Program-made: the position numbers and the translations under genes | Shown here: one piece after another, positions 5,357 through 42,600 of the stretch | How the letters are laid out: each line of letters begins with the position of its first letter | Position numbering within the stretch: position 1 is the stretch's first letter | Assembly: GCA_023014365.1 (NCBI GenBank) | Contig: JAEBUN010000027.1 | Location: 310,001 to 374,000 of the forward strand | DNA: 64,000 nt | DNA from: Lepiota brunneoincarnata | Taxonomy: Eukaryota > Basidiomycota > Agaricomycetes > Agaricales > Agaricaceae | Direction of reading: 5' to 3' | The notes under the pieces: generated by a model | What the model saw: the letters and a program-made list of their open reading frames with translations, nothing else | Database searches by the model: none | Told to the model about the DNA's origin: nothing

Positions 5357-8300
5357 CTATGGAGGGAGAAGTGCCGGCGAGGAAGGATCGTCGATAAACT
5401 CAACTAAAATGTTTTGGAGCGTATAACTACCTTCGATCACAAACAACTCCAACTCGTGTTTCCCCACCTCAAAGACCAAGTCAAACGCGAAATTGCATAG
5501 TCGAGGTTCATCGAGGGGAATTTCGTCATTCCGGATCCGGCCAAGTTCAATGCCTCCTTCTTGAATTGACAGCGACGTAGGACCGGTTCGGTAGTGTAAC
5601 AATCTGATCTTCGGGCGTGCTGGGGTTCCAATGAATATCATGAGGTGCGCGATTGTGTGGTTTCCATCTGCCACTGCTCCCCTGCCGATTATGCGAATTG
5701 GAGTAAGATAAAATGTTGATGAAGTGGCGACTTGCTGTGTCCACCAATACTCGCGATTGCGTTGAATGAAAGGGAGAACAATTTCGTCGTGGGAAGTATC
5801 GCTGAGGTAGAGCAGATGGTCATTTTCCTCGATGGTGAGGCCTTTTTTTACATTGATCACGGTGCGAGTGAACGGTTTTTGGATGACTTGATAAACAACA
5901 TCGGGGTGACAAAGTATGACGTTGTAGACAGTCGCAACACTGAGTCTTGCAGCAAGCAGCCCGTGTTCACGCGGGAGGTATTGAAAGTTTGCGAACCTTG
6001 AGTAAACACCCGAGGCTGTCGAGAGAGCATACTCTGAGTACGCCTGATCCAATTGGCTCAGATTCACATCCCTAATCTGGTCAATTCCTCTTCTCCATCT
6101 CTGTCCATATGGCATCCAGAGGGGAGCTCCGACGTTTCAGTCTCATCTGTATGTCTGCCAGAAGCTCGCGGTTAGCAGACAAAGGAAAGACCCCTGGGAG
6201 GTCATCCTGTGGACCGGGAACATTGCCGCCCGCGACCACTGTCTCCCATGCCTCGTTGATTAACTCCTGGGACCTCCGCCACCACTCTCGAGCATTCTCC
6301 ATATTTCCCTCCACGGCTCGCTTTGCTGCTATCTCCATCCTCCCTTTCGCTTGCGCCCCTTCACCCTCCAATCGCTTCTTCCGTCCAGCAGACCACTCAA
6401 GGGAAAACCAGTCCCTCATCCATTCTCGCCCCTTCAACTTGACGACCATCTCAATATGTTCTTCCATTCGTGAATCAAGCACCTCCTCCTAGTCCTACTG
6501 ACATCTTCAACAGAGCCAGCTCGTGTTTCTGCCACTCTACTGCCATCCAAGCTTCCAACTGGTCCAGCTCCAACTGTTTGCCTCGTTCGTTTGTCATCGG
6601 CTCTTCATTTACAAAATGGCAGTCAAGCCAAAGCATCCTTACGCATCACCCCCATGCCCTCTACAAGCCAGTCACTCCACTGTTTTCATGAGCCTTCTTT
6701 TGAGGTGGTGCTCATGGCCCCGTTGTAGATACTGATTATCATGCTCCAAGGAGTGGCCTCGGCGTGAAGGAACTGTGTTGGGTCACCCTTCGTTCCAGGG
6801 CCTTGGCTTCAAAACTCCACTTCATGAGCAGCGGTGCAGATAGTGGAGATACAGATGGATAAGGCGCCGTCGTCAGACCAGAAGGCTGATATCATGGAAG
6901 GGGGCCGGGATGAAATCAGCCGGCCAAGCCACGGCACGAGCGTTTTGGTGAAGCGCTGGGTTTGTCGATCTAGGGGTCGATGTGCCTCGGGACCAACACG
7001 GTTCAAGGCACGCAACAGAGAGTCGTAATGATCTGTTAGATCACTCAGAAGAACGGGATAATTTATCTTCCAGGGATGCTTGTCGCCGATCTCTGAGAGT
7101 AACGTAGCTTGCATTTCCACCTTGTCCATGTCGGGGTCGATGGAGCAATTAGTGTACACAGTTCTCCCCAGCTCTCGGTATACCACAAATGCCATACGCT
7201 CGTTTGCATCGAGTACGGTCATAAACAGGTGCTTCTGCCCTTTGGCACCAGATAAAGTATAATATAACACGATATTTGGATAACCCTTGAATTGTTCCAG
7301 CGGACCAGTATAGCGAGTGATGAACTCGAGGAATCGCTGTTCTGGCATTAAAGGGAGGGTATTGTCGAGCAGGTCCACATCCTTTTCCGTTGTGACCAAA
7401 GGTTCATGCTCCGTCAATTTCAGATGTATGGTGATATCGCTCTTCTCGTCCCATCCAGGATTCCATGCCCATAGCAAAATCCGCACTACGGAGAGCGCAA
7501 CCTCTACCCCCAGCCAGATTGCAGGGCCGTTGGACGTGCTGTTAGAAGCGAGTGTAAATGATCCAATATATCCAGCTATAGCTGCAGGAATCGCAAGTAA
7601 AAGGACTATCCATGAGGAAATGATGAAAATCCAGTCTCTGACGGGGCTAGGAAAGTGTGATTTGCGTTGGTTCCGCAACTGCTCCAAAATATCATCACGA
7701 TTGATCGCCGTGAATGGATTATCAGGGCCTTGCATTGAACTCGGAGTTTGCACCCGAGGTGGGGCAGGAGACAGAGAGACAGTATCCTCGGGCGGTTGTA
7801 TAGGAATGGAGACATATGATTGAGTAGGAGATTGGGGTGGAGAGGGCGAATCGTCGGGTGGCTGTACCAAGATAAGATACGATTGGGCCGGAGAATGGGG
7901 CGGGGAAGTCCTGGGGCTCCTTTTCTGGTGCATTTGACGAGGAGGGTATCTCGGGAGGGTGAGGAGATTGGACATATTGAGACGACTTTGTCAGATAGCT
8001 CTCGAGGCTCCAGAGGCACTCCTCAGCAATGAAATCTCGATTCCACAGAACATGGTCGTGACTCTGAAGACGCAGCTCGGGCCTATCGATCTCTTTTGCT
8101 TGGAGATCGCGCAGAAGTTGCCGATGCAACGTCATGAAGATGATCCGATTCTTCATGATGGAAACTGACACGAGATTGGATAAGGAACTGGCAGCTAACC
8201 GAAGCTAGGCAACTGCCTAGTGTGCGCACAAGCGGGAAAACCCATCCCAATCCCCCCGCACCCAGAACAAGATGGAAATAGGGTGTATAACTCAGCACAG

Positions 8301-8775
8301 CAGCAATGATGGTACACAGGACAAGTTGGGCATTCCACCAGAAAGACTTCCATTCGATCGTAAGGTTCTCTGGATTGTCGATGTGTTTTTCGTTGAGCAT
8401 CTGTATTAGCCGGCTCTCTGCGGTATAGCGTTTCTTATCCATCGCAATCATAGGAGCAACCGTCCCCATGGGCTTGAAACCAGCGTCGTCGAGGACTCTA
8501 GCTCCGCACCACCGAAATCCCGAAAATGCGAGCGATAGTTTAGGTGAGCGGGAAAGCTTGATAGACGGGATGGAGATGCTTGCGACGAGGACAGATATTC
8601 CAGTCTTGATGATACCCGGACTGCCGAATAGGGAGAGAGGCGCAACGGCAGCGTAGAGGTATCCTCCCTCAAGAGCCGAACCAACGTGCTTTTCACACTG
8701 TTCAGTTCCAATTAGAGGCAGGAGAGCAGAAAGGTCCTGTATTCCACCAGTCAATGTCCCGCCAAAGTCCGACAT
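5357..8775 (-). pseudogene. Large multi-pass membrane protein, copy 1 (frame-disrupted)
   Basis: The start MSDFGGTLTGGIQDLSALL at 8775 opens a 600-nt block. It encodes hydrophobic segments (YAAVAPLSLFGSPGII; LVLCTIIAAVLSYTPYFHLVL) and then a conserved block LWNRDFIAEECLWSLESYL. A proline-rich linker follows, then two strong membrane segments (FIISSWIVLLLAIPAAIAGY; WLGVEVALSVVRILLWAW) near 7600-7450. A charged helical part (6482-6081) and a C-terminal beta-rich part ending near 5357 (LVFEVGKHELELFVIEGSY) complete it. The same order occurs in copy 2 at 51.9-55.2 kb. Frames change near 8165, where GTCAGTTTCC has one base more than copy 2, and again near 7915 and 6800-6480. Some changes may be introns, but at least one is a true length difference. 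Function is unknown; I do not recognise a named family. Confidence 0.6.
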
Positions 8776-9347
8776 CGCTATAGAAGCTGTGAGTGGGCAC
8801 GATGTGTTGGACAGATATACACCTGACCTTCGTTGGAGGAGCTTTAAATGTAGATAGATGGATTGTAGATAGCGGAAAGACCAAAAGAGTTATTCTGATC
8901 TGAGGCCAGGATAATTCACAGCGACGGGTATTCTTACCTGGGAGTTTGGGACAAGAGGGCCTCTTGGCGCTCTTGTTCAATCGAAGGATTGCCTGAGGAG
9001 GAATCAAACTCTCACGGGTACGCCTCCAACGCACTGCCCGCACCGAAAACATTAGTGTCCAGTTTTAAATTCCCTGTCATGGATTGATAGCGTGTTATCG
9101 CCGGATCACCGGATTTTCAATCCTAAGATTGACGCCCAGTAAACGAAATCTTGAACGCCCCAAAGTCATTATCCGACTGCCCTCGATTTGCTTCAAGGCT
9201 TGATCCTGCGATATAGCGAGGCATGCCTAAGAGGCTTCCGTGAGTCTTGCAATTATAAGGGCCAAAACTTTTGCAGGGGGGAGGCAAACGCGAACAGAGC
9301 GATGATTTCAAGCAGCAAAGGAATACGGATTCAAACCATATTAAAGT
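8776..9347. other. Upstream region of membrane gene copy 1
   Basis: This is the 5' flank of the minus-strand membrane-protein gene and the start of repeat R1 copy b. Only short unsupported frames are present. Confidence 0.4.
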
Positions 9348-14461: not shown

Positions 14462-14902
14462 TTAACACGCCGTGTCGGGAGGGACGTCGGCGCAGCTATA
14501 CCGTGTCCCATGTTGGTAAGAATGCAGCGTCTAATAGATTGAATCCTCTTACTAGTTAGTCGCAAAGCCGTGGCAGCAGCGTTTTCCGTTGGGACCTAGA
14601 AAATGTCTGGTTATATAACAGCCTTTAGAAACTTGGGGGATGGCGCGTACTTTTGATGCAATCCTATAAACGATAGGAAGAACGAGCACGGGCATATGTT
14701 CAGCATTTAAACCTTGAAGTTCGGTAGCTTCATACCTTGTCGACTGAAACCTAATATTGGAGGTGAAGGTCAGAAGGCCCTGCTTGATATCGAAGACGGA
14801 ATTTGACTTACATTCGTGCTGTAGTTCCGGAGGCTGGGCTCTAGCATCCATCACTTGTGCGACACAAGTCAAGAACAAAAAAGTGAGGATCCTCCACTGC
14901 AT
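14462..14902 (-). CDS. Six-cysteine small secreted protein J (imperfect)
   Basis: Member of the knottin-like family of this locus. Exon 1 (14902-14812) encodes a signal peptide (MQWRILTFLFLTCVAQVMDA) and ends one base into the first Cys codon. Exon 2 is 14750-14736, a GATT microexon lies at 14663-14660, exon 4 (14595-14553) holds PNGKRCCHGFATN, and exon 5 (14495-14462) ends ...C. Predicted spacing is C-x5-C-x5-CC-x7-C-x8-C. Two irregularities appear: exon 2 is one base too long for the frame to close (total 187 nt), and the intron after GATT starts GC instead of GT. Read straight through without splicing, exons 1-4 also form an open frame of 116 codons. It is either a recently damaged copy or a gene with non-standard splicing. 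A TATA-like TTAAATACC lies near 14992-15000. Confidence 0.55.
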
Positions 14903-15707
14903 GGTAGAAATGCGGACGGTTGGAAGGGCAAATGATAGACGACGTTCAAGTTGGGAACGGGCTTATGAAGGAAACCCGGTGGAGCGTAGCCGGTATTTAA
15001 CATGTCAGCCCATCAATGCAAAGTTAGTGGGCGCTATCCCCTTTGAGGGAAATCTATAGGTCACGAACCCGCATATAGAGTGAGCGGTATGTGCACACCC
15101 CCCGCTCTCGCTTACAATCTTACCCTCCAAACCCGGCCGAGAATGAAGGGCAACAAGGACAGGCTTAATGTGCCCGTGAGGGAATTGCAAGTGCGATGCC
15201 GTCAACTTGTCAGATTAACTCGTGGCTGACGTCGGCCTAGATCATAAACAACGTCCGAAAGGTACGCTTTGCCAAGACTATGATGCCAAGAGGCGGGGGC
15301 CGAATTTGCCAGAGGGGTAGTATTACAAGGGTCATTAATCAATGCATCCCTGGCCGCCAGGAGCCTGGCCCGATATGTTCCATATGCACACCTCGAGCGA
15401 CTTACCCCCGGCGTGCTGAAACGTCATCCAGTCCGTGCATCAGAACAGGTTTCGGTGGTACTGTTAACCCATGTGGTACGGATATGAACCGGTGCCAACA
15501 ACCGTCGGCCAGGAGTAAGATTGTCATGTGGAGTTTCACAAGCGCGTCGAGAACCCACGAATGTTATTGTTTGCGCCCGATTTCAGCAATGAATACATCC
15601 ACGACAACCAAAGGGCTCGGACGGGACGGAATACATCTCTTGGCAATAACAAGGTTAAATGTAACATATCACTCTCTGTTCCACGTAAAGTGTACACTTC
15701 GTACAGA

Positions 15708-16087
15708 TCAGCAGAAAGTGCCGAGCGGTAAGCAGCTTATGTCGAGTCATCAGTTGGCTGACAGGCATCTGGAACGTTCAGTATAAACACTCACTATTGA
15801 ATCGTGGGAATGAGACCACAGCAGCGATAACCGTCTGCCTCTCTACACTGGTTAATATGAACGAATATCAGTGTCAGGTTGATCCCACAAACAATAATCT
15901 CCCTACATTATATTCATTGCAGACTGTCCGCGAGTAAAACGTGTGACAAAGGGCCAATGAGCTTCAAGTCACGCAGAAAGTAACAACAAAGGGTTTACAG
16001 ACCTTTAGGCGGTTTACTAGCAGGCACTGCTACTGCAGAGACAGCGAAGAGAGCGAGGAGAGCGACAAAGGACTTGTTGAGCAACAT
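15708..16087 (-). CDS. Six-cysteine small secreted protein A
   Basis: Four exons (16087-16003, 15923-15907, 15847-15795, 15735-15708) sum to 183 nt and close in frame to 60 residues. Exon 1 (85 nt) encodes the signal peptide MLLNKSFVALLALFAVSAVA. The mature part has six Cys as C-x4-C-x7-CC-x8-C-x6-C, around DGYRCCGL, and ends on Cys. Intron phases are 1, 0 and 2. No microexon is used: exon 3 begins directly with TGT, the second Cys. All introns are GT-AG. A TATA-like TTAAATAC sits about 40 bases upstream (16126-16134). The product should be exported and disulphide-bonded; its function is unknown. Nearest relatives are B and C just downstream. Confidence 0.75.
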
Positions 16088-16125
16088 TGTGGCTTGACAG
16101 AAACCGTCTCTGAATTTCTTTGTGT

Positions 16126-16134
16126 CTTAAATAC
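16126..16134 (-). promoter_or_regulatory. TATA-like element of SSP gene A
   Basis: The minus strand reads GTATTTAAG, about 40 bases before the start codon of gene A. The equivalent 'cttaaat' element recurs before B (16896-16903) and C (17784-17792) at the same distance, so promoters were duplicated with the genes. Confidence 0.5.
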
Positions 16135-16584
16135 CCCACGGGGCCCTAACTTGAGTGTCGAGCATTCTATCAAATTAACGATAGTTATCATAGGGTATTT
16201 CGAAACGACTGGAGGGTTTAGCCCAAGTTTCCGCACAATCTACGACAGCCACCATTTTTACACCCAGTGGGCATCAAGAGTGTATGTTCGGCGGTACTGT
16301 TAACCCCTTGCGGTACGAATATGAACTGAAAATGTTTACCGGTGCCAACAACCCTTGAGCGGGGGTAAGATTGTCAGGTGGAGTTTCACGAGCACGTTGA
16401 GAATATTCTTTGGGCCGGATTTCAGTAATGCACGCACCACGATAACCAAAGAAGCTCATACAATCACGCAAGCCTACAAAACAATGGACAGAATACATTT
16501 CGTAGCAACAACATTGTCGAATGTAGCACATCATGCTCCCAAAATCCATTTTCAGTTTCGGGAAATATGTACACATCACACCAA

Positions 16585-16858
16585 TCAGCAGACAGTACCA
16601 AGCGGCAGGCAGCTTATGTCGAATCATCATAGGCTGACACGTATCTGGAATGTTCAGCGTAAATACTCACTATTGAAGCTCTGCGGTGAGACCACAGCAG
16701 TGGTAACCGTCTTTCTCTCTACACTGGTTAATATGAACGAATATCAGTGCCAGACTGACCCCGCAGCCAATAACCTTCCTACATTGCGCGGAGTGCAGCC
16801 CTACTGCAGAGACGGCAAAGAGAGCGAGGAGAGTGACAAGGGACTTGTTGAGCAACAT
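16585..16858 (-). pseudogene. Six-cysteine small secreted protein B (deleted copy)
   Basis: It matches A and C from the start codon (MLLNKSLVTLLALFAVSAV) and in the CC exon (KDGYHCCGL) and last exon (CLPLGTVC, 16612-16585). A deletion between exon 1 and exon 2 has removed the first intron and the exon carrying the first cysteine. What remains of exon 1 (16858-16783, 76 nt) is out of phase with the next exon. If the second intron is retained, a frame stays open to a stop after HCCGLTAELQ, giving a protein without the last two cysteines. Most likely non-functional as a six-Cys protein. Confidence 0.65.
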
Positions 16859-17365
16859 CACTGGTTCGACAGAAGCCGTTTCTGAGTTTCTTTCCCTTAA
16901 ATGCCCCACGAGGCCCTAACTTGAGGGGCGAGCAAAGATCTTTATCAAATTAATGATAATTATCATACGTAATTCAAACGACTGGGGGGCCCAATCGAAG
17001 TTCCTATACAATCTACTACAACCTCCGCCTTTACACCCTCGCGTCGGGTTCTTCCAGCCAAATCGAGGAGCCGAATTTACTAGAGAGTGGGCACGACGAG
17101 CTGATGATCAGCGGTACTATTAACCCTTGTGGTACGGATATGAATGGGGAACATGTATACAGGGGTGAGATTGTCACGTGGAGTTTTACAACCACGTCGA
17201 GAGCCAGTGTTATTGTTGCGGCCCGATTTCAGGGATGCACATACCAAAGAAGCTCAGACAATCACGAAAGCCTACAGGATACATTGCGTAACAACATGGT
17301 CGAATGTAACAAATCTACGCCCATATCCATTCTCTGTTTCGGGTAATATGTACACTTCACACCGA

Positions 17366-17745
17366 TTAGCAGACAGTACCAAGGGGCAGGCAGCTTGTGT
17401 CAAATCATCAGTTTGCTGATGCGCCTCTGGAATATTCAGCATAAGGACTTACGATTGATGCGTGGCGATGAGACCACAGCAATGGTACCCGTCTTTCAGT
17501 CTACACTGGTTGATACGAACGACCATCAGTGCTATGCCGACTTTACAAACAAACAAGAATCTTCATACATTAAGTTTATTGCAGGCTGTCTCCAAATAAA
17601 CGTGTGACAAAGCCAATCAGTTCAAAGATGTGCAGAACGCACTATTAGAGGACAACACACGTGCTGGGGGTTTGCTGGCAGGGACTGCCACTGCGGAGAC
17701 AGCGAAGAGAGTGATGAGAGCGACAAGGGACCTGCTGAACAACAT
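17366..17745 (-). CDS. Six-cysteine small secreted protein C
   Basis: Four exons (17745-17661, 17585-17569, 17505-17453, 17393-17366) total 183 nt, closing to 60 residues. It has the same exon sizes as gene A (85, 17, 53, 28) and the same intron phases (1, 0, 2). The signal peptide is MLFSRSLVALITLFAVSAVA. The mature pattern is C-x4-C-x7-CC-x8-C-x6-C with DGYHCCGL around the double Cys and a C-terminal Cys. All junctions are canonical. A TATA-like element lies at 17784-17792. This is the intact sister of A and of the broken B; the three form a tandem array in one orientation. Confidence 0.75.
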
Positions 17746-17988
17746 TGTGGCTTGACAGAAGTCGTTTCTGAATTTCATTATTCTCTTAAATACCTCACGG
17801 GACCATGAGTTCAATGGCGAGGAAAGACCTTTATCAAATTAACGATGCTTGTCACTATGTAATTCAAATAACTGGGTTTAGCCGAAGGTTCCCCGCACAA
17901 TCTACTACAGCCTCCACTTATGCAACCCCAAACCAGGTTCTTCTAGCTGAAACCGAGAATGCGCCTCCTTGACGTTCCACGGTGTCGA

Positions 17989-18424
17989 TCAGCAGACGGT
18001 GTCCAAAGGGACACAGCTGTCAGAACGGCTTTGCGTCAGCGCTCTACATCGGGTCGGGGGCTCCGCCACTTACTTCATGAATGCCGCAGCGAAGCCACAG
18101 CAGTGGTAACCTTTTCCACCTATTGGAATTTATTCAGTCTTATGTCAGATAATCCTCGGTGAGATTCCCAATCAGGAATTACATTGCTATGATTGCTATA
18201 CGTCAGCTCATTGTCCGCATGATTACAATGTTACAACTCACATTGTCGCTAGTGCCTAGAATGGAAAAAAGGAAAGATTATTAGTGTTACGATGATCGGA
18301 TGTTTAAATAGCGAAGGTACTGCGCACAATTAGCAGCAACACCATAATCGGGATTGGCGCTGGGCGCCGCTGCTGCCTGGGCAGCGAAGAGAAGAGCAAA
18401 GGCGAGAACACTCTTGAATTGCAT
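17989..18424 (-). CDS. Six-cysteine small secreted protein D
   Basis: Exons 18424-18328, 18255-18242, a 4-nt microexon GATT at 18154-18151, 18119-18074 and 18016-17989 total 189 nt and close to 62 residues. The signal peptide is MQFKSVLAFALLFAAQAAAA. Cysteine spacing is C-x5-C-x5-CC-x8-C-x6-C with GKGYHCCGF. The short 31-nt intron after the microexon begins AT rather than GT (atctga...aatag), so either this donor has mutated or splicing is non-standard. If that intron is not removed, the family pattern is lost. A TATA box (TTATATAC, 18471-18478) lies about 47 bases upstream of the start. Confidence 0.65.
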
Positions 18425-18470
18425 GGTTGTAAATCGAGTTGAGATGAAAGTCCGCGGCAATGGATGTCTC

Positions 18471-18478
18471 TTATATAC
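18471..18478 (-). promoter_or_regulatory. TATA box of SSP gene D
   Basis: The minus strand reads GTATATAA about 47 bases before the ATG, the best TATA match in the cluster. Confidence 0.55.
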
Positions 18479-19004
18479 CTAGGACAGCCGTATTTTTGTC
18501 TACGTTTTCACGATCCAACACTGGTGTGTGTGTCGTCCGGTATGTTTGTCAGCGCCTGTTGAACAACAAGCCGACACCGACAGCTCACAGCTCCAAGGAG
18601 CAGTATGCATCACCCGCACCACGGCACGAAACCGCAGTAGTGGGTCCCCCTCAATGATGAGGATGGACGCTGACGATACTTGTCTGCGTTCTGAACTCAA
18701 GCATTTTCCGCGCTCTTCGCAGACACCCAGTTGGCGTCGTGAGTTGATCAACAGTCAGTCACTCATTCTAGTCACCGGCATCGAGCGGTCGGACCACCGC
18801 TTTTGGTCCGCGACGTTGATTCGGTCTTGTCAGACCGTTCCAAAAATATGCTTGGGAATTTTACACTGAAGACTCTGCTTCGGTGCTCAACTTCGCCAGA
18901 TGCTCAGCAAGACTTAATGGATCGAACAATCGCAGAAACCTTGTATTCAACAACTATGGATTGAACAAATTACATTCGGTACAGGCGAGCATGCCGAAGA
19001 GCCC

Positions 19005-19289
19005 TTAGCACACGGCGCCTTTCGGGAGTGTGGCACAGCTAAACCCCGTGAGTCCACCTGGAACAATCGACAAAGGAGAAAGGAAAGGCTTACATAGGAC
19101 CATTAATGGACTTGCAACATTGTTGTTTGGGGGTACAGTAATTGTAACCACCTGAACATGGGATTAAGGGTACACTAAGGACGAGACAAATGCCTGTTGC
19201 TCACATGGGGTACCCTTGGCCGGGGTCGCGACAGCTTGGGACGCAAAGAGAGCGAAAGCAACGGCGAGGAGCTTGAAAGTGTACATCAT
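19005..19289 (-). CDS. Six-cysteine small secreted protein E
   Basis: Three exons (19289-19205, 19151-19094, 19038-19005) sum to 177 nt and close to 58 residues. Exon 1 is again 85 nt and encodes MMYTFKLLAVAFALFASQAVA. The second exon carries the first four cysteines without interruption (GYNYCTPKQQCCKSINGP), so the introns around the microexon are absent here. The last exon follows a phase-2 intron whose acceptor must be 'tttag' before CTGTGCC; the nearer 'ccag' leads to a stop. Pattern: C-x4-C-x5-CC-x7-C-x8-C, ending on Cys. This is the most compact gene structure in the family. Confidence 0.7.
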
Positions 19290-19326
19290 GGCGTTCTTAG
19301 AGAGAGATGTCCCGTTGAACAGGGGG

Positions 19327-19336
19327 ATTTTTATAG
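19327..19336 (-). promoter_or_regulatory. TATA box of SSP gene E
   Basis: The minus strand reads TTCTATAAAAA about 40 bases before the start codon of gene E. Confidence 0.5.
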
Positions 19337-19639
19337 AAACGACGCTATTAATTCCTTGGCATCAGGTCGAACAAAGTGGTGGTTCATCTCGTACGTAGAG
19401 GAAGTGTTCCAGGCAATTCGCTTTCAAACCAAAAGACACGATGTCATTTCGTAACGGATGTGTTCCAACAGCAGCTAGCGTCGGGGCTGTGCAGTCGCCG
19501 CTCATGCCAGACCCTTGTGGCATGTACTCGTGCGGTGAGACTGGTGATGAGCAATGGGTTTACTGACCGTCACGCTGAGAATACCAATGGAGGTCCCATT
19601 GAGGGCTGATAGATATCCTTAGCCATTACAATGTATTGA

Positions 19640-19924
19640 GATTGATTCTTCTCTGTATGTCCCCAGGGGGGGGGGAAATACAACTGGGCAGGAGGATGGA
19701 TAGACACCACAAGCTTACCGCTATAGAATTTTCAACTTACGTGAAACAGTTGACAATCCCGCAGCAGTGCTGGTCGGAGTAAGGGCGACCTTGCTAAGCG
19801 CTCGAGCTGTTCCAACCTCAACGAGCCCAGCCAAATGCATCCATAGGCCTATGTAATATAGGGTCTTGGGGGCGGAGAAAACACAAAAAACACAGCGACA
19901 ATGGCGAGGAACTTGACTTCACAT
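19640..19924 (-). pseudogene. Six-cysteine small secreted protein F (decayed copy)
   Basis: On the minus strand an ATG at 19924 is followed at once by a TGA, then by signal-peptide-like sequence (KFLAIVAVFFVF). An exon after 'cttagcaag' reads RPYSDQHCCGIVNCF around 19795-19740 and ends at a gtaagt donor. The CC exon and a candidate terminal exon (after 'cctgcccag', near 19660) fit the family, but the start is destroyed and no full frame can be assembled. A run of about ten C lies in the terminal part. Relic of the family. Confidence 0.5.
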
Positions 19925-20896
19925 ATCCCCCTAGTAGTGGCATCTAGTTGTGATAAAAGCAACTAAGGATCGGAGGATAGAGGAGAGCGGCGGACCGCGC
20001 GTTTTCCACTGCCTGGTAGAGCTCCGTATGGGGACGAGAGTGAGTCAGAATAGCTTTTAATGGGCGGCCGACGATGTAGGACTTGTGTATGCCGACGTGC
20101 AAGGACCTGGATCACAAAGGGATTTAGGCAGTCGGCGCCAAGGGTCGGTATTGGAATGGAAAGTTATGCTCTATTTCCTCATGATGCTGATTTCTCCTTG
20201 ACTGAACCGGTGGGCCGAGAATGGGTACCGGGTGACGCAACTTCGGTCCCAGCAGGGCGAGCGGCCAATCTAAGTCCTAGTGTGAAGCGTCCGTGCCCAT
20301 GAGTGCCCAAGGTTCCCACATGCTGCCAGTGAATTTCCAAAAGGGGCAGTCTCATCATTGGTGTTGAAACATGATCACGCCCTGAATTTGAAGCTCATTA
20401 TGAAATTCTCGTCATTTATCCCCATGAAGGTCTAGTCTAGTCTCGTTCGAAAGCCCCTCCCAGGCACATCCTTTCAGGAACGAGCGCACCAACACCACCG
20501 GGCTTCCTGGAATGCGCTCAGAACAGTTGGGTATCAAATAAGAGAGCCCCTAGGCTTCAGAGTAACCAGTCGGTATGAGCAGCCTTCGAAGCTCATAGAT
20601 ACCCGTTGGACGTTATCCTCTACTACCAGAAAACAAGCTACGCTTGACCTTCCAAGGCTCGAAAGATCGAAGCTGCTTACTCCCTCCAGAGTCTGCGGGG
20701 GTACAGAAGTTACGAATCTGACTATGAGAGGCCCAGTGCAGATGAGCAAGCTGAGGACCCAGTAATGGGCCTTAATCGCTCCTTGGCTTCCAATTGATAG
20801 TGGCCAAACCCACGGCGGTGATCTCTATCGACGTTTCAGACAGCCAAAAGAATTGTTATCGTAAGGGGTTTCCTTGTAGAGCGCAAATCAGAGTTG

Positions 20897-20905
20897 CATA
20901 AATAC
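20897..20905 (+). promoter_or_regulatory. TATA-like element of SSP gene H
   Basis: CATAAATAC lies about 40 bases upstream of the ATG at 20944. Confidence 0.45.
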
Positions 20906-20943
20906 GGACGTTCATCGCCCGTAGCATCCCAATTCCGTCTACA

Positions 20944-21393
20944 ATGCGTCCATTCACACTCCCAGCTGTTCTTCTCGCTCTTGCCGCAATGGCCGCCGCC
21001 GGCCCACTAGACGAGAGAAAGCCCCCTGTCTACCGCTGTAAGTGGTATTTCCGAGATAATATTCTACGCATCGATAACCATTCTTCACCAGGTGCTAACG
21101 AGGCTGGGGTAAGTACCTTCGTGGTGACACACTTTCATCAAGTATTGACTAGAACCGTCTGGTCACTGTCAACATAAGGACGTCTGTGAGTTGAGTCGCA
21201 CTGCGAGTTACTTCCTGAACCAACCCAATTTCCCCAGGCCCGAGCCCTAAATACACCTGCTGTGGACCGATTACATCCCCTGATGGTGGCTAGTGCGTCG
21301 AGATTAAACCGTTTGCTCGCAGGGTGTGATCGAGGCTAACTCATCCCCTGTAGTTGCCGCATTCTAAAGCCTGGACAAGTCTGTATCTTTTAA
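20944..21393 (+). CDS. Six-cysteine small secreted protein H (7-nt microexon)
   Basis: Five exons (20944-21037, 21092-21108, microexon 21179-21185 GACGTCT, 21238-21292, 21354-21393) total 213 nt and close to 70 residues. The signal peptide is MRPFTLPAVLLALAAMAAA. Cysteine spacing is C-x7-C-x6-CC-x10-C-x8-C with SPKYTCCGP. All four introns (54, 70, 52 and 61 nt) are GT-AG with phases 1, 0, 1 and 2. The microexon encodes Asp-Val plus the first base of the second Cys codon; skipping it breaks the frame. Without the last intron the frame stops at TAG right after the double-Cys exon. It is on the plus strand, facing the minus-strand members. Confidence 0.75.
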
Positions 21394-21635
21394 GCAGGCG
21401 CCTGCCTAACTACATACATATCATCGTAGTGTCATTTTTTGTGGGTGGGCCCGTGATGGAGGAACGCCTGCGCTGATCTGAATATATTCTCATGTGAAGG
21501 CACACCTGAGCCACAATATAGCCATCTGATCATCTGACACCGATTCTATTGATCTTAATCCTTGCTTGATTCAAGGGTTGTAACTACGTGGCATCGTTCT
21601 CCACAACATACATCGTAATGACGTTGTTCTCCACC

Positions 21636-22058
21636 TCAGCAGATGACATCAGGTGGAAGCTTCACGCAGCTAAGGATGGGACGTGAATACAACACTGTGC
21701 CTTCCGGTGCTGGTATGCTTACATGGGATGCGTAACGGACTGGCAGCAGGTTAGCCCAGCTGGACCTATTGATAGCTCTGTCAGAATTTATAATAAATCC
21801 TAGCCAAGTCAGAGTTGTTCACAATCCTGTATTTTTGTGCCTCGAGTCAGAGACCAATTCACTCATCTAAATGTCGAAAAAATTACTCACGGTTTGCCTA
21901 ATACCTGGAGGATGGAAAAGATATCAGTTTGTAAATGGGTGTCATGTGGCCGTACAAAAGCACAACAACGAACATGCAGGAGGGTCAGTATAGTTTGGCA
22001 AGGCGACTGCACCCTGAACAACAACGGCGAGGAGGGCGAGGGCAAGAGCTTTGTACAT
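21636..22058 (-). CDS. Six-cysteine small secreted protein G (4-nt microexon)
   Basis: Five exons (22058-21974, 21904-21891, microexon 21826-21823 GATT, 21765-21723, 21669-21636) total 180 nt and close to 59 residues. Exon 1 (85 nt) encodes MYKALALALLAVVVQGAVA. The mature part is C-x5-C-x5-CC-x7-C-x8-C with PAGLTCCQSV and ends on Cys. All introns are GT-AG. The microexon supplies Asp and the first base of the second Cys codon; without its four bases the total is 176 nt and no frame closes. A GGATAAAAA element lies about 55 bases upstream (near 22111-22117). Confidence 0.75.
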
Positions 22059-24783
22059 GGCTTGTATGGGTTCTTTTTTGTTGAGGTTCGCCCAGGGTAA
22101 GTTCGTGCCCTTTTTATCCTGGGCGAATTCGGAACGTTGGTACTATTTTTACAGCATCCCCCGAAACCTGACACATTCTGCCCCACTTGCTCACAGAGAA
22201 CTTAACATCCGACCAACGAACCTCGCTGGCAAGCTGGGGTATTGGAATATTGTGCTGATCCTGCGGGCGGCGGGTAGGTGGGGGTATCAAGACCTGCCGA
22301 GAGGTAATTGATCTAAGGCCGGTGAGCGTGGACATCGGAATAGGGTCTGAAGAATATTCACATTCGCATGGTTCTAATCTTTCTCCAGAGGTAGTCGGAT
22401 AAAAGCGGCAAGATGTATTGAAAGTTGAAGCGTACATTCCAGACTCACGACCATGGCGGGGTTCATGATGTTCAAGTGGACTCCTTCGAACCAATACACA
22501 AATTTGTGACCGCAACCATTTGAGCAGCCATGCATGTAGGGGGTCGGCGGGGAGGCGCTCATACACATGGACTGTCTGCACGGGTATTAAATCATTGGAA
22601 CTATGAGACTATCACGCCTCGGCAACATTCAACTCCCGCGATGAGGATGATGAAGTGGTGATATTAGCAAGCCCGATCTTCCCTGCTATTTCGGATACAG
22701 CGCTTACATCCCTGAAATAATGGTCCCTAAAACTAGACGTCCTCTTCGCGGTCCGAGGAACCCTTGCCACAAGGCCCGGAACTAGGCTTGGGAGTCCGGG
22801 CGCCGCGGATCAACATACCTCAAGCCCATAACTCGGCCTTGCTTCCTATACTTAGCGTGTTCCAGGTCAGGGATTGCGGCCATCCCCGCGCGTGGACAAC
22901 AAACTAACAACTTTCCGAATCTCTGCCCATCAGCAGCGTGAGGCGTCGCAGTACCCGTACATAAGGCACGGAAACAACATTTATTTGTCAGAGGCCCCTA
23001 AGTCGGGGCCTTAGAAGTGTTAGCCTTTGGTGCTGCACGATACACCCAGGGTATCTATCTATTTGACCTTGACATCTGCACGGTGCAGACAGGCAGATGT
23101 TGATCCGTCAAACACTATAGCAAGAGACAAGTAGGCGAATGTCAGTATTTCCAGAGTAGCTCGACCCGTTTCCTACTGCGGATCAAACCATATACAATGG
23201 CAACTCGAGTCCCATAGTCACTGGATTTTTTGCTTGACGAGCCGGGCACCGCTTCACTGGAAAGCAACCACATGCTCATTATGATTCAGTGGTTGGGCGG
23301 AGAGTAAACCCCTATTGGTCAGGAATGCGGGGATAAATGCTTACTCGACTATCCAACATAGTGAGAAACCCTAACCATATGGGGCGATCCCCTTCCAACG
23401 GGCATTGTAGCCCTACATCTGAAGGGAATAGTTCAATATATCTTCCGATTGTTATTCGCAACACAGGGACGAGCTGCCGCTTCCATACTCCACTCAGCCA
23501 GTTATACACCTTTTAAAGGGTGCTGTGTAACTTCAAGCAAGACGCAGGGGCGCTCATACTTCCAGTTTAGGTCTGAGGCTCACCGCTAGAGACATCTTTA
23601 GGCTTTTGGTGTGCATCGTGACATGGGTGCGAGGGAGCACTTCTCAGCTTCAAGTCAAGCTTATAAAAACGTCACGTTGTCGACGAGTGAATGACCAGTT
23701 GACCGATTCATTCCGTCTTTTCAATAATAATTAACCAGTCTGTAGTCCAGGCTCCATTTTCACGTTCTTTTCGATAAGCCACTGTTACAGGATGGCGGAA
23801 CGGTTTTTTGATGGTTTGGGGCTACCTCTAACAGAAGCGGCAGGGGGGCTCCCCAGGTACATAGCTGAGTCCGGAATTTAGAAGGGCAGAGAAGTTGCTG
23901 AACGCGGAAGAAGCCAGGCACCCTGAATAGCGGCCTATTGTGTGTAATGGTCTGTTTCAAGAATTCCCGGTGGGGAGCTGATTGATTTCTAACACTCAAT
24001 TATATATCAAACCTGCTTATATTCAATACTCAAATCCAGGTTCTGAGATCCGATAGATGACTGATGACACCGAAACAATGAAACAGGGATTGGGGGGGGG
24101 GGGGGGGGTTTGAGTAACGTTAGCTTCGTTACATGCGTGTCTTGTCTCCCCTGCTTGATCCTACATTTTACATAGTGGTGCTTCGAAGGGGGAAATTCAA
24201 ACTCACGGGGCGCAACCTCTGTGCGTTAATAATAATAGGAAACCTGAGAGAGGAGGAAATACTAACGGCCAGGGAAAGGCACGAGATCTTATCATAACAG
24301 AGCTGGACCAAAATATGAGTTCAAAGAGATATCTCCCTACGATTTCTCACGACGCCGTATAATTTTATAACCCGTATTTTTCGCAGGAAGACCGGCATAA
24401 TCAACTGTCATCGTTGGACATCTGGACATGTTTGCTTGCCACCCGAATGCAAATCGTATTGTATGAATCTCCACGTGACCTCCTCTACCGCTGCCCTTTG
24501 CCAACTCGAGGGCCTAATGCTGGAGAAACCCGCTCATCGTCCCCTGCGCCTACCTTGTATTCAAGAACCTTCATCGCCACCATTGGATTTGGAACCATGG
24601 AAACGATTGCAGATCCAAGTTAACGACTCGGACTCTCTTAGAGCCTTGTTCAGGACTAGGGCGCACCCTTAGTTACAAACCTGACGGCACAGGCACGGCC
24701 GCAGCTGGGATATGTTGAGAGAGCGAGTTATTTTTATGCGCTTCGGCGGTGGTCTTTTTTTGGTATCAAAAGGTGCATTCAAC
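22059..24783. other. Long intergenic stretch without supported gene
   Basis: About 2.7 kb with only short frames that do not resemble known proteins. It contains an uninterrupted run of 17 G at 24092-24108. I looked for further six-Cys genes by their TGCTGT-type double-Cys exon and found none here. Confidence 0.5.
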
Positions 24784-24792
24784 TCTTATAAG
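24784..24792 (+). promoter_or_regulatory. TATA-like element of SSP gene I
   Basis: CTTATAAGT lies about 45 bases before the ATG at 24836. Confidence 0.45.
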
Positions 24793-24835
24793 TTCGAGCA
24801 CCTCAGAGCCCCAAACTTCATCATTCACCATCACT

Positions 24836-25267
24836 ATGCGCGTTACAACTCTTGCTATCGCTGTCATCGCCTTCTTGGCCTCCAATGCTATTGCGTCTCC
24901 TAGTCCCATAGACGCATCCAGTGCCACGATTCACTGTAAGTGATATTCAAAACCGTCCCTCGTTCGTAGATTTGACGGATTGTTAATAGGCAATTCATCC
25001 CATGTAAGTCGTCTTTTTAAGTGAATTGAATCGGAAATAACCACCGGCCGTTGGGTGTGATTTACCAAGCCTTGTGAGTAGAGCATTGGGCGTTTCAAGT
25101 GTGAGTTGAACTGACGACAGCCAAGGTCCGTATGGCTACCGTTGCTGTGGGCCGCTTCAGCTTGGAGTTGGCGGAACGTGAGTGTTCAACCTATTCTCCG
25201 TCCTATTCAAAGTGGTGACCACGATTCTAGGTGTTACCCTGCAGCTACGCGCCTCTGCCCTCTTTGA
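24836..25267 (+). CDS. Six-cysteine small secreted protein I (4-nt microexon)
   Basis: Five exons (24836-24935, 24990-25003, microexon 25070-25073 CCTT, 25126-25177, 25231-25267) total 207 nt and close to 68 residues. The signal peptide is MRVTTLAIAVIAFLASNAIA. Cysteine spacing is C-x5-C-x5-CC-x10-C-x7-C with PYGYRCCGPLQLGVGGT; two residues follow the last Cys. Introns of 54, 66, 52 and 53 nt are all GT-AG. The microexon encodes Pro plus the first base of the second Cys codon. The gene lies just upstream of GMC copy 1, and a truncated duplicate of it sits in the same position before GMC copy 2, so it belongs to the tandemly duplicated unit. Confidence 0.75.
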
Positions 25268-25782
25268 AGAATCACCTACTCTGGTAATATGTACATACTT
25301 GTGTTGAGTGTAAACTGTCGGAATGTGTGCAAGTGCTTGTACTGCAGTTATTAGTATTGAAGCTTACTAGGCCTATAAGTCCTGCTACATAAGTCGAATA
25401 TCTGAACGCGTCTACTCTTCACCGTCCCGATGAAGTACCACCATCTAATGTTTGAATGAGTTACCCACCGAACCCTGTGCGACTGTCGTTGTGGTATTTG
25501 ACATTGACATCAACCTCCACTGCCCACCTGGATAAGAACTCTAAATTTACTCCTTACCTCGAAGAGCTATCTTAAGCGGCAGTGTTCGCGTTGAAGTCTC
25601 CACCTTTCATAGTGCCAGGTGACCGTCCTTCTCCCCCGCCATGCTTCTTTGGACTCTTACAATGGTAACTCTTTCTTCCACATACATTTTCTTTGTTCCC
25701 ATCCCTATTTCTAGAATCTATAAAACTCACGGCCCTCAGGTGTGGGACAGATTCTGCTGACGTTACGGTTGGGCAGGCACAC

Positions 25783-28115
25783 ATGCGCCTGTTTCTTGCT
25801 TTGTCATTGCTAGGGGCTGGCTCAAGTCTCGCAGCCATCTTTCAGGATGTCTCGCAAATACCTTCCAGGACCTACGATTTCATCATTGCAGGAGGTATGC
25901 CCCTTGCATTATGGTTGGGCCCCTGGTGATCTTGTCTCAGGTGGAACCGCAGGCCTCGTCGTCGCCAACAGATTAACCGAAGACCCCAAGGTTCACGTTC
26001 TCGTGCTCGAAGCTGGGCCCTCGTGGGTCCTTCCTCTCGACGACGCATCCCCTAGCTGACCCGAATGTTTCAGGCATCAGGGAATTCTCGATCTGGAGGT
26101 TCCCTGGCTTGCTTCACGACTTAGACTGGCGGGGGCACCCTTTGACTGGAATACTTCGAGCACGCCACAGCCTGGTCTGAATGGGAGGTCAATAGTGTAC
26201 GCAAGAGCTCACGTCCTTGGCGGAAGCAGCTCCCACAGTACGCTTAATGTTCTACAAGCCAATGACACCCGATAACAACTATGATGTGATAGATGGGATG
26301 ATTTGGATTCGGGGATCATCAGATGATTATGATAAATGGGCAGAAGTTACTGGTGACAAAGGATGGTCGTGGAAAGAAATGCTGCCTTACTTGGAGAAAG
26401 TGTGTCTCTTGTTCGTTCATGGCGTGTATGCACCGTGCTGACTAGGTGGATCAGACTGAACGCTGGACCACAGCCCCGGGCCATGGTTCTGAAGAAGGGG
26501 ACTTCGAACCCTCGTACTCATGGATTCAGAGGTCCCCTTGGGTATTGGATTGAATAACGTTTTGCAACCAACGGACCCGCTGGTGATCCAGACCACAAAA
26601 GATCTGCCAGACGAGTTTCCATTTATTGAAGATGCAAATGCTGGCAGGCCCATCGGCGTCGGTGAGTGTTAGGCTCCTCACGGAAGCCGTAGCACCTAAC
26701 ATGCGAGCCAATCAAAAGCGTGGACTCAGTTCTCTATTGCGAACGGAACTCGCACCAGCGCCGCGACGGCCTACCTTGGACCCCGTCCTTGATCGACCTA
26801 ATCTCTCGGTGCTTGTCGGGACATACGTCACTCGGATTTTGCAAGCCTCTAGAGGCAGTTTCAGGAACAGTGGAGTTCGCAAATAACCAGACGAGTATGC
26901 CTGTGTCCTAAATTCCCCGGAGATCCACATAAGCCAATAATAATTGTTTTATTTTAGGTCCTCGTCAGTCAGGCTTACGGCCTCTAAAGAGCTCATCCTC
27001 TCCGCCGGCGTCATTGGCACACCACAAATTCTAATGAATTCGGGTATTGGTGACTCAGCTGAATTGCAAGCAAGCTGGAAGTCGAAACCTGTTGTCCACA
27101 TACCCAGCGTAGGAAGAATTTTAGCACTGAGCCAATGATTCCGCTTAGCTGGGGGGCTAATGTGACAATAGCCAAGTACGTGCGTTCCGTTTTCCCGCAC
27201 CCAAAGCCAACAACTAAGGTATTATTTCTCAGTTTGAACACCAATATGACAGCGTCAGACGAAGCACTAGAGCAATGGATATCTTCTCGAACGGGTCTTA
27301 TGACGGGAGGGGGAGAGAGTATGTCTGCTTACTTCAGACTACCTAGAGACTCGCCGGCGCTGGCTGGTCATGTTGATCCCTCTGCTGGGCCTAACACCCC
27401 TCACTTTCGGTATCGCCCTCAACGTGAGTTGGATAGAATATGTAACTTCAGTCCATCGTGACTGATGCTATTTTCAGGCCAATGGTTATTTCTCATTGTC
27501 ACCAATACCCGTTCTTTCCGTCCTAACGGAACTTTCCGAACCTGCTTCGCGTCAGTGATACTGTTTGCTGGTTCCCTTCCACTTATTCATTAAAACTCAT
27601 CCTCAGGCGGCTCAATCACCCTCAGGTCAAATGATCCCTTCCTAGTTACCACTAGTCGACCTTGCGTTCTACTCGGCTGCGGTTGACGTTGCAATAGTCA
27701 AGGAGGCATTCAAGACAGCCCAGAGATACGTGACTTCACCCGCATGGACGGGATTCACTCTGGACCGCATCGCACCACCCCCAAGTGCAATTTCAGAACA
27801 AGAAATTGAGCAATATATCCGCAACTCTACAAACACCGCTTCCCATGGTATCGGAACCTCCGCAATGTCCCCGCGAGATGCGGCGTATGGTGTGGTTAAT
27901 CCAGATCTGCTGGTAAAGGGGATTTCAGGGTTACGCATTGTGGATGCATCAGTCATCGTAAGTTTGCAGTGCTCTCACTGGCAATGTGACTATCTTTTGA
28001 ATCCTGTTATTTGTGATGCCAGCCCTTCAGTCCTGCGGCTAATACGCAAGCACCTGTGTATGCAATTGCTGAACGTGCATCTGATTTGATTAAGCGGGCG
28101 TGGAAATTGAAATGA
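25783..28115 (+). pseudogene. GMC oxidoreductase, copy 1 (frame-disrupted)
   Basis: Related to aryl-alcohol oxidase and pyranose dehydrogenase: FAD-dependent, secreted oxidation of alcohols or sugars. It has a signal peptide ([17 protein letters not shown]), the FAD-binding [19 protein letters not shown] split by an intron, [21 protein letters not shown] and MIWIRGSSDDYDKWAEVTGD. The C-terminal active-site block is SHGIGTSAMSP and NPDLLVKGISGLRIVDASVI. About eight introns are preserved. Relative to copy 2, extra bases break the frame near 26505 (ttcGaacc), 26537 (ccccTtggg), 26964 (two bases) and in the region 27060-27120. Downstream exons are open. It is therefore unlikely to be translated in full unless these are sequence errors. 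Confidence 0.7.
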
Positions 28116-29460: not shown

Positions 29461-30071
29461 TGACTTCTCCCCCCTCGGGCCGCGGGTAACATGTACTGCT
29501 TGAGTGCAAACTATCTGAATGTGTGCTACTGTTGCAGGCGCACTGTTGGTATTGAAACTCTCTGAGTCTTTACCATACCCCCTGCGTTGGACGAGCTCGT
29601 TGAAACGACGGGATGAGCGTATCGGACAATGCGGGGGGGGTAAACGAAATGATAGCCATGTGTACTCTGAGTACGTGATGTAACTGTACGACATAGAGGT
29701 GTTTTCTGTATTCCGACACTCCTTTCCATTATTTGCTTGATAAGGTGAAATATCCATAAATGCAAGCGCTGCCTCGTGCGATTCTCCTTGTGATATTTGA
29801 CATTGACATCGACGTACGCCACTGCCCATCGGAAGAGGAGCCCTTGTAGGGTCCCTCTGTCAGGAGTTCTCTTCGGCACCTTAATCATCGTATTGAAGCC
29901 CCCATATGCATGGGTCCTGGCTTCCTCTGCTGTGCTTCCCTGTGCTCTCACAATGGAAACTTTTCCTTGCGTACATGCTTTCTTCATTCCTATCCGTATT
30001 GTTGCTAGAATATATAAAACTAGCGTCCATCGGCACGGGACATGGCAAGGCTAACGTCGCATTGGGTAGAC

Positions 30072-32385
<2,314 letters not shown>

Positions 32386-34722
32386 ACTCAGGAGGCTGCT
32401 GGTGGTGACAGGCATACTGTACGAGTATGTAGTTAATATTATTCGTGGGCAATGTCGAATATCTTGTTCAATTTATCCCAGGCTCAACGTATGATGTTCA
32501 ATATATCACATCATCTCTAGCCCCATGTCGTCCCGGTACAACCGGCAGTGTGTGGCTTCTACTACCAACTCAAAAGCCGCTAGCCGCCTTACGAGCCTCA
32601 TGTTTGAACTATACGAGGCGGATGAGAACGACGAACGTTTCTGATGAGGTGCCCTGCGACTGCAGCCTTGCCCCAGCCCTCCCTATAAGTCGTGCTTGTT
32701 CTACTATTTCCATTTGTCTAGACTGTTTTATCCACTCGCTTCATTTTTTGGTCCATACATTTAGACCGCCGCACACGTGATTTTGTGGGCGTCATTTCTG
32801 GTCAATTCGGTAAAGTGTTTCTTGGTTTTTAACCTGCCTCAGTTCCCGTCTTATCCTTTGGAATACCTTCCTCCATGTATCGTTACTCTGGAGGATCTGG
32901 CATGCTGACAGCCTTTCTCCCTTTTCCAGTCAACCCTTGCGAAAACAAAGTCAAGGTCCAATGGTCCTGCCCTTGTAACCACAAATGATCCGACCACAAG
33001 TGGTGCTCAAGGGGTTGACGTGGCGGGAATATGTCACGGAGGTTCAAAGGTGCACCATCATCCTGGCCGGCACATCTGACACTACTCCCAGGTTAGAGCC
33101 CATTATCATATCATAAGCTTGCACCGTCATTGATGAACCTCCGCCCTTGTCTCCCAGAAGCCCATCCACCCTAATTCAGGGGCGGGGCTCTGTTGTTGTA
33201 TACCCTATCGGCGAGGTATCGCTGCCCTTTCGACCGCTCTCCAACTTATTCGTCAATTCAACAACCACAATCTGGTTCGCGTTTCATCGGACTCCTCATC
33301 CTGGATGCTCTTACGCCTGTCCATCCGCTCATCGATTTCGCCATTCAAGATGGGTTCTTGTATGTTGGCACACGTGTGATTCGGATGGGATCCCTGTTGA
33401 GGTGGTCCGGGGGGAGACGGATATTGAGGGCAAGCGCTTAGCCCATATAATTCATTGCCCGAAATTGTAAGCTGCTCTCATGTCCCAAAACCATCCCATT
33501 CGCCTCAAACAAAAGCTGCCGTATAGTAAAACGAAAGAAAACGACCTCGGCAAACGCAAATTTGATCGAAAAGGAACATGACATCAAATACGACCCTGAA
33601 ACCGGCGAAATGCATGTAACAGGACACTAACGGCGTCATTCTACACTCTCCATGCCAAGTTCATCCTCTTCTCAAACTTGCAAACTCTTGGCATAGTGTC
33701 ACCACTCATGCACGAATCTCACCCCCGTCCACATTCTGTCTTCGCGCTCCGCATTCCTGGTGTCAAGGTCGGTCTCCCTTCCACATGGCGGGAGCAACTG
33801 GAGGGGGATGTGAGGGATATTTAACCTTGTTGATCTGGCTGGGTAGCGGCACGGACCAGGGGGTCGGGTTGCCGGGTAAAGAGAGAGTGAAGGAAGCACA
33901 GGATATCAACGAGGGTTGGGTTTGGGTGCGTTGGATGATGTGATTGTGGTGCTTGGGAAGAAGCGGGCCAAACATAGGAGCCCGAAGCCGACATATTTCC
34001 TGCAAGAGTCTCGAGTGGGAATTCGGAGACTTTAGTGGGTGCATCACACTCGGCTATGTTTTTTGTTGGTTCATATGTTTCAGATGGTTTTGAACCTGTC
34101 ACCACTGGCAGCTCATCTCAACGAATCGTCGTCCTCACTTCCGTGCACAACAAGGTACGTAGATTATATTTACCCGTCAATTATAGTGATTGTCCCTACA
34201 ACCCTTCTAAGTCAACACCACGCAATTTGGTACTACTAAGAAACAGTTGCGATCATCATGTCACGGACTCAGCGGGCTATGCAGAGCACGCTAGTTTATG
34301 CCCACCTGACAAATAAGACTCCGAGAACTTCAGGGATTACAACCTGAGGCCCAAGTGTCTTTGGTGGTTCCAGCTTGGACCCGGTGGCATAGCAAGAAAT
34401 ATGGTGCTGAAAAACGAATGATATTTCGACACAGGCTGCAGGGTCTGGGAGCTCTTGGAAGGGCCGGCTAGAAGCCGATGGAGGGTGTAAATAACTGCTA
34501 ATTAGACCGCCAGTGGAGAAAGAACAGAACCCACGTTACTTGTGGGGACCGAGTATTGCCCGAGCGCTTTGGTCTGCCTTCGGCACATTATTAGAGAGGT
34601 GTTGAAGTGAGTAAGTTGTTGAGAGAACAGTGAAGCTTTGGGTAGCTGTGTATTTTGACGCATGTTATAAATGCTTCTCTGAATCACATGATCCCAATTT
34701 GACTTGTTGGTCAACACCCAAC
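32386..34722 (+). repeat. Duplicated spacer of the GMC/F-box unit, copy 1
   Basis: This spacer matches 37960-40038 through most of its length: around 32430-33000 against 38000-38530, 33300-33640 against 38610-39170, and 33640-34450 against 39170-39960. Near 33540-33630 a short frame ending NLIEKEHDIKYDPETGEMHV looks like a former C-terminus, but the family is not recognised. R2 copy b lies at 33890-34450. Confidence 0.55.
33890..34450 (+). repeat. Dispersed repeat R2, copy b
   Basis: Direct-orientation copy of the R2 repeat, ending in the 'ggctgcagggtctgggagctc' segment upstream of the first F-box gene. See also 856-1450 and 39460-39960. Confidence 0.65.
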
Positions 34723-42240: not shown

Positions 42241-42600
42241 ACTTCAGGCCAAATCAGGTACAAGTGCCGCTAGTGATTCCTGCTCGGTCCCCTCCTCTCT
42301 AGGAACTCGTTAAACTACGAAGGCCTCGAGATCGGAATAGGGAGTGAGAAGAGCACAATGGTGACCAAGCATTATCTGCACGGTTTGACCCACTTTCAGT
42401 ATGTTATTAAATGTGGTATAGGAGTCGAAATGAACGAATTAAGAAGGAGATATGATGGACTCGAGATAGTATTCGTACGAGTTAAAGAACGATTATAGGC
42501 TCCTTGTATCAGTTCTGGGATATGTCACCGAATATGTCATCTGAGTTGACGGTGTGAGACATCAGCGCATCAACTTACAGTATCTTATTCAAAACCCAAC
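42241..42600. other. Short region before F-box copy 3
   Basis: No feature is supported. It presumably includes the promoter of F-box copy 3. Confidence 0.35.

Follow-up and report, generated by a model that had tools for sequence, protein, structure and literature searches.

Does the array of very small genes between 14.46 and 25.27 kb of a 64,000-nucleotide stretch of the Lepiota brunneoincarnata genome encode ordinary cystine-knot peptides, as the initial annotation proposed from their cysteine order, or peptides of another fold? The window, by which we mean that whole stretch (contig C22, positions 310001-374000; the genome comprises 55.6 Mb in 95 contigs), was searched with an exon-chaining script that uses GT..AG introns, a hydrophobic N-terminus, the cysteine order C-C-CC-C-C and splice-site scores. 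Eight in-frame gene models were recovered, each hydrophobic at the N-terminus and carrying six cysteines in the mature part, which confirms that the cluster of small, predicted-secreted six-cysteine genes is real; seven of the eight are better supported and one (c1) is weak. The initial annotation counted seven closing genes, and its letters A-J are not mapped one-to-one onto the numbers used here. We consider it slightly better than an even chance that these genes encode secreted three-disulfide, mini-granulin-like peptides with a single hairpin, whose variable loops would likely bind an extracellular target. The members of the cluster, with loops given as residues between successive cysteines, are as follows.

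14902-14462, minus strand: c1, weak, five alternative chains with a best score of 0.0; exons 14902-14812, 14735-14713, 14663-14651, 14595-14553 and 14495-14462 (91, 23, 13, 43 and 34 nt); loops 8,8,0,7,8.
16087-15708, minus strand: c2, 60 amino acids; exons of 85, 17, 53 and 28 nt; loops 4,7,0,8,6; tied chains.
16858-16585, minus strand: c3, damaged copy in which the CC exon and the last exon are still recognisable.
17745-17366, minus strand: c4, 60 amino acids; exons of 85, 17, 53 and 28 nt; loops 4,7,0,8,6; two tied chains.
18424-17989, minus strand: c5, 62 amino acids; exons of 97, 14, 4, 46 and 28 nt; loops 5,5,0,8,6.
19289-19005, minus strand: c6, 58 amino acids; exons of 85, 58 and 34 nt; loops 4,5,0,7,8.
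19915-19700, minus strand: c7, probable relic, a CC exon followed by GTAAGT, recognised by eye.
20944-21393, plus strand: c8, 70 amino acids; exons of 94, 17, 7, 55 and 40 nt; loops 7,6,0,10,8.
21179-21185, plus strand: 7-nt micro-exon of c8, which codes for D and V and supplies base one of a Cys codon.
22058-21636, minus strand: c9, 59 amino acids; exons of 85, 14, 4, 43 and 34 nt; loops 5,5,0,7,8; two tied chains.
24836-25267, plus strand: c10, 68 amino acids; exons of 100, 14, 4, 52 and 37 nt; loops 5,5,0,10,7.

Several features that had been described from the letters alone were recovered, including signal-like hydrophobic N-termini with the C, C, CC, C, C order in all eight closed models, a CC-to-C loop of 7-10 residues (7, 8 or 10 in the eight genes), a lead into the double cysteine that is rich in G and Y in many members, and related intron phases. 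The phases are 1,0,1,2 in c5, c8, c9, c10 and the path chosen for c1, 1,0,2 in c2 and c4, and 1,2 in c6. Their agreement within the window is partly a matter of choice, because the chains of c2, c4, c5 and c9 were picked by their fit to the exon lengths of the family: c2, c4 and c9 have equal-scoring alternatives that differ in exon 1, and the adopted chain of c5 scores 7.9 against 8.9 for the top chain. A single strict chain was obtained for each of c8 and c10, and in copies of c5 and c6 on another contig (C1, below) the family exon lengths come out as the top-scoring chains.

Chance assembly of such genes was rejected, since shuffled sequence gave almost no closed chains. In the real 10.9-kb region, strict chaining found four genes (five stop ends), compared with one match in total in 300 dinucleotide shuffles; loose chaining at a score of at least 1.5 gave eight stop ends, not all of them separate genes (c1 scores below 1.5), versus none in 32 shuffles. 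When 144 kb of C22 were searched strictly, only c4, c6, c8 and c10 were returned. A TATA-like motif lies 46 to 59 nt before the ATG in seven of the eight genes (for example, TATTTAA at -46 in c2 and at -47 in c4, and TATAA at -49 in c10) and is missing from c1. The scan covered 130 nt before each ATG with a motif set that was widened after some upstream sequence had been viewed, and 10% of random 60-nt stretches hold the motif.

A genome-wide pattern scan followed by chaining revealed a sister cluster at 3.057-3.061 Mb of C1, which consists of the following parts.

C1:3057006-3060740 (loci L017, L060 and L061): two c6-type genes with exons of 88, 58 and 34 nt, and one c5-type gene with exons of 97, 14, 4, 46 and 28 nt, the lengths found in c5.
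C1, 3057.0-3057.2 kb: c6-like signal and CC exon, a remnant.
C1, 3060.4-3060.5 kb, other strand: c9-like exons.

Differences at the three codon positions in the three window-C1 pairs are 15/13/35, 13/15/25 and 18/13/35, and the ratio of nonsynonymous to synonymous substitution (dN/dS) is about 0.10-0.27, with dS saturated in two of the pairs. Exons are on the whole more similar than introns among the family genes compared. Judged from these substitutions, genes of the c5 and c6 types code for protein and evolve under purifying selection. The view that members share little beyond the cysteine frame does not hold: identity is 72% between c2 and c4, 61% between c5 and its C1 copy, 54-58% between c6 and its C1 copies, and 50% over the full alignment between c8 and one annotated protein of Coprinopsis.

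Three annotated relatives, all from Coprinopsis and all matching c8 (47-51% identity), were the only ones returned by word-based searches of a 5.8-billion-protein set: FA15DRAFT_704919 of Coprinopsis marcescibilis (P0001), and BKA70DRAFT_1262159 (P0002) and BKA70DRAFT_1277590 (P0003) of Coprinopsis sp. MPI-PUGE-AT-0042. They are named hypothetical and carry no Pfam family above cut-off. The residues AGDVC of the 7-nt exon of c8 are present in P0001 and P0002 and missing in P0003. A search for homologues with the types other than c8 gave none at E<=1, and P0002 found nothing in the genome of the window itself, which shows little because the exons are so small. The support for individual genes differs: c8 is supported by homologues, c2, c4, c9 and c10 by family likeness, and c1 is uncertain.

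Whole-genome scans with short patterns place the family in few positions. All three matches of QCCxSING are family genes, and three of the four matches of TCCGPI lie in no family gene that the script could close. GYxCCG has 48 matches, of which 43 were examined, the other five being copies of one dispersed repeat; family genes among those examined occur in the C22 and C1 clusters only. Dispersed-repeat sequence with GGATATTGGTGTTGTGG, found on many contigs, accounts for 15 of the 48 matches (e.g., C22:258548). At C58:1805524-1805613, a match to the signal exon of c9 (53% identity, E 0.014) marks a possible further family member.

All 14 family proteins contain six cysteines with one CC pair, and the loops range over 4-8, 5-8, 0, 7-10 and 6-8 residues. 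The fold was approached with a main profile, built from 13 mature peptides with c1 excluded and searched against the PDB. Five matches were obtained and all five are granulins (E 0.048-9.6), and three control profiles with permuted columns and retained cysteine positions gave one, zero and zero matches, none of them a granulin. In hhalign, the probability of the family profile against three granulin N-terminal halves was 92.5, versus 0.5, 8.7 and 0.9 for the permuted controls. A profile of seven window genes also placed granulin A and granulin-4 as the top two of its six PDB matches. The likeness extends beyond cysteine spacing to residues, as the pattern C..CPxGYTCC, characteristic of the granulin N-half, is found in the family.

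A second family provides a contrast for the same method. At least four copies of an unrelated six-cysteine, predicted-secreted family lie 4-37 kb past the right end of the window.

C22:378412, 401505, 407292 and 411289, minus strand (loci L011, L013 and L014): neighbouring six-cysteine family.

Three of these copies have the spacing C-x6-C-x5-CC-x3-C-x10-C, and LPR stands before the mature part. Five of the six PDB matches of its profile are venom or toxin peptides (E 0.031-0.55), which we take to be cystine-knot peptides. Profile-profile probability for this family is 0.25 against granulin and 0.21 against the window family, and its CC-C loop is 3 residues long as opposed to 7-10. The profile method separates the two families and places the window family on the granulin side.

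Cysteine geometry suggests how such a peptide could close on itself. In the PDB alignment, the granulin A N-half is spaced 5,5,0,8 up to Cys V, which is followed directly by a second cysteine. The next granulin cysteine comes six residues after that CC pair. We therefore take the sixth fungal cysteine to occupy the granulin VII position, with VI missing, by the granulin motif. In full-length granulins, IV-VII and VI-IX pair, and the bonds I-III and II-V occur in full-length and truncated forms alike (PMC7463432). Because granulin pairing comprises I-III, II-V and IV-VII, cysteines I-V and VII would form a closed three-bond set. The same source describes mini-granulin peptides with a single hairpin at residues 13-23 (PMC7463432), which may correspond to the segment from Cys III to V. 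Two AlphaFold models built on three-sequence alignments contain strands at 44-51/55-60 and 46-49/57-61; if the strands pair as we read them, they suggest a hairpin that turns between Cys IV and V.

Among named systems, the closest are the mini-granulin or paragranulin half-modules (zebrafish paragranulin, truncated fluke granulin, and the conotoxins phi-MiXXVIIA, H-Vc7.2 and TxVIIB). The window family resembles granulin N-halves in its C-x5-C-x5-CC spacing and its CPxGYTCC residues, and the low-confidence models would add a IV-V hairpin. Unlike half-granulins, in which V and VI are adjacent, the sixth cysteine stands 6-8 residues past V, so that the family is not a half-granulin in that strict arrangement; unlike these systems, it consists of independent fungal genes with three to five exons. 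The N-terminal 19 columns of the twelve-cysteine granulin module (PF00396) align with the family, which differs from it in having six cysteines, no C-terminal half and no PF00396 match.

Several results weigh against a mini-granulin-like fold. The granulin alignment spans only 19 columns (Cys I-IV), no PDB match has an E-value below 0.03, the granulin N-halves used in hhalign were picked because they had matched the family, and c6-type peptides lack the CPxGY residues. A two-sequence profile of c8 and P0001 gave two PDB matches, both to gallinacin-11 and neither to a granulin. None of the 14 family proteins matches Pfam granulin PF00396 at E<=10, and the three places in the genome where this profile matches below threshold lie in neither cluster. 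Pfam WAP, on the other hand, matches 3 of the 14 (c5 at 22.7 bits with a cut-off of 20.8, c9 at 19.8 and the C1 copy of c5 at 17.6). The AlphaFold models are of low confidence, with predicted local distance difference test (pLDDT) values of 64.5 and 60.2 and predicted template modelling (pTM) scores of 0.41 and 0.35, and neither of them had a significant match in the structure searches with Foldseek/VIA. The mini-granulin fold can itself bear cystine-knot pairing, and prediction programs can miss it, according to PMC11035057. Finally, differences between c2 and c4 (14/10/15 by codon position, dN/dS 0.37) show little third-position excess. Two of the sub-threshold PF00396 places are the following.

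C90:1397367-1397438: 20.1 bits, with a cut-off of 20.9.
C34:138315-138404: 17.4 bits, with the same cut-off.

It is rather unlikely, but by no means negligible, that these are ordinary fungal inhibitor-cystine-knot peptides (knottins) with a long CC-C loop and the pairing I-IV, II-V, III-VI, serving as effectors or in defence. Their cysteine order is identical to that of knottins, a fungal knottin (MLP124266) has been solved (PMC6889267), even a mini-granulin fold can carry the knottin pairing (PMC11035057), and for the second model Foldseek gives a spider toxin as its sole match (E 9.6). Against this, none of the five PDB matches of the 13-peptide profile is a cystine-knot peptide, although the same method finds venom peptides for the neighbouring family (five of six), the CC-C loop is longer than the 3 residues seen there, and the hairpin is modelled, at low confidence, at IV-V. 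The knottin reading of the initial annotation is thus disfavoured, and its interpretation as a whole is partly supported. The window peptides share with the Melampsora MLP124266/AvrP4 family a small size, predicted secretion, six cysteines and a multigene organisation; in MLP124266 the pairing is that of knottins and the strands lie at Cys V and VI (PMC6889267), unlike the IV-V turn modelled here at low confidence, and it is not among the PDB matches of the three family profiles. That the genes encode reduced WAP-type (four-disulfide-core) protease inhibitors is very improbable: they share the C-x5-C-x5-CC core of PF00095 and c5 exceeds the cut-off, but 11 of the 14 proteins have no match, the three matches begin at profile position 15, 15 or 10 of 41 and so leave the first part of the domain unmatched, there are six cysteines instead of eight, and the CC-C and last loops exceed those of WAP. 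A six-frame WAP search of the genome was empty, but the exons are tiny. Membership in WAP was accordingly rejected, with six cysteines and 3 of 14 matches, one of them over the cut-off.

Whether a mini-granulin-like fold would reflect common ancestry is a further question. Descent from true granulins, with half-modules kept from an ancestral granulin thought lost in fungi, would account for the residue-level CPxGYTCC match that goes beyond cysteine spacing and that the controls lack; we nevertheless regard it as improbable, given that this genome contains no granulin match above cut-off, that the searches made found the family only in Coprinopsis besides this genome, and that the motif is short enough for convergence. 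It is extremely improbable that the genes are decaying, unexpressed relics or a mirage of splicing. Such a view would fit the damaged copies (c3, c7), a lone signal exon situated 4.6 kb to the left of the window, the weak splice sites of c1 and the tied chains in c2, c4 and c9. It is opposed by the codon-position skew, the shuffles, the TATA-like boxes, the agreement in exon lengths with the C1 cluster and the three annotated homologues.

Decay appears nonetheless to have affected individual members, as had been proposed for some. Copy c3 seems to have lost intron 1 and exon 2 together with the last part of exon 1: by eye, its first exon, a signal exon, continues into what in c2 is intron, so that it looks deleted. 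The best chains that begin at the start codon of c3 itself score -1.2 (-0.8 from an upstream ATG). On its strand, c7 is absent among the tblastn matches listed (E<=1, best per ~60-bp bin). A further relic had been placed at 29.2 kb, where we could not recover it: among the tblastn matches listed, 28990-28904 has an E-value of 0.33 and nothing lies between 28990 and 33849. The lone signal exon is followed, by eye, by sequence resembling a GMC oxidoreductase.

C22:305384-305469 (locus L002), left of the window: c2-type signal-peptide exon, 81% DNA identity, a relic.

With a mini-granulin-like fold, each peptide would amount to a half-module complete in itself. Secretion is predicted from the hydrophobic N-termini, and the signal peptide would be cut after about residue 20, leaving some 38-50 residues, whose six cysteines would be equivalent to granulin I, II, III, IV, V and VII, bonded I-III, II-V and IV-VII. 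The two loops IV-V and V-VI, of differing length from one paralogue to another, would form a target-binding surface outside the cell. Net charge after residue 20 ranges from -4 to +4 over ten family genes, which disfavours a uniformly cationic, membrane-lytic mode. Purifying selection inside each type, combined with loop differences from type to type, is consistent with a set of binding peptides built on a common scaffold. The most likely use would be as a stable extracellular binding peptide directed towards competitors, grazers or the fungus's own cells, with low confidence as to the target itself.

A stronger claim, that fungi do have granulins, retained by mushroom fungi in the form of a minimal, closed half-granulin (I-V and VII, with three native bonds) that is secreted as a free-standing peptide and diversified in arrayed genes with 4-7-nt micro-exons, is decidedly doubtful at present. 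PMC4527844 reports granulin-related genes as absent from all fungi, and we found no fungal granulin-like peptide in the open-access literature. A granulin-half pattern in fungi would bear on the idea, raised in PMC7463432, that the half-module is the ancestral unit. The closed set of I-V and VII would also natively solve the folding problem of the truncated fluke and zebrafish granulins, in which a non-native bond is formed. Genes with 4-7-nt exons may easily be overlooked by gene callers. A scan with NCBIfam returned weak and unrelated matches only.

Neighbouring genes include one each of the GMC oxidoreductase, Exo_endo_phos and GFA kinds, together with F-box-like genes. Other sequences in the window are repeated or related among themselves, as listed below.

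25776-26208 and 30065-30499: two copies of a direct repeat (81-84% identity), one on either side of the stretch to the right of the cluster.
34615-43911: three related open reading frames (ORFs) in a row, by eye; the first is above the Pfam F-box-like cut-off and the second just below it.
8083-8889, minus strand: protein starting with MSDFGGTLTGGIQDLSALLPLIGTEQCEKH.
51809-52513, plus strand: protein with a near-identical start, about 43 kb away and in opposite orientation, without a Pfam match.

Beside each of the two MSDFGGTLTGGIQDLSALLPLIGTEQCEKH protein starts, more similar ORFs are visible by eye.

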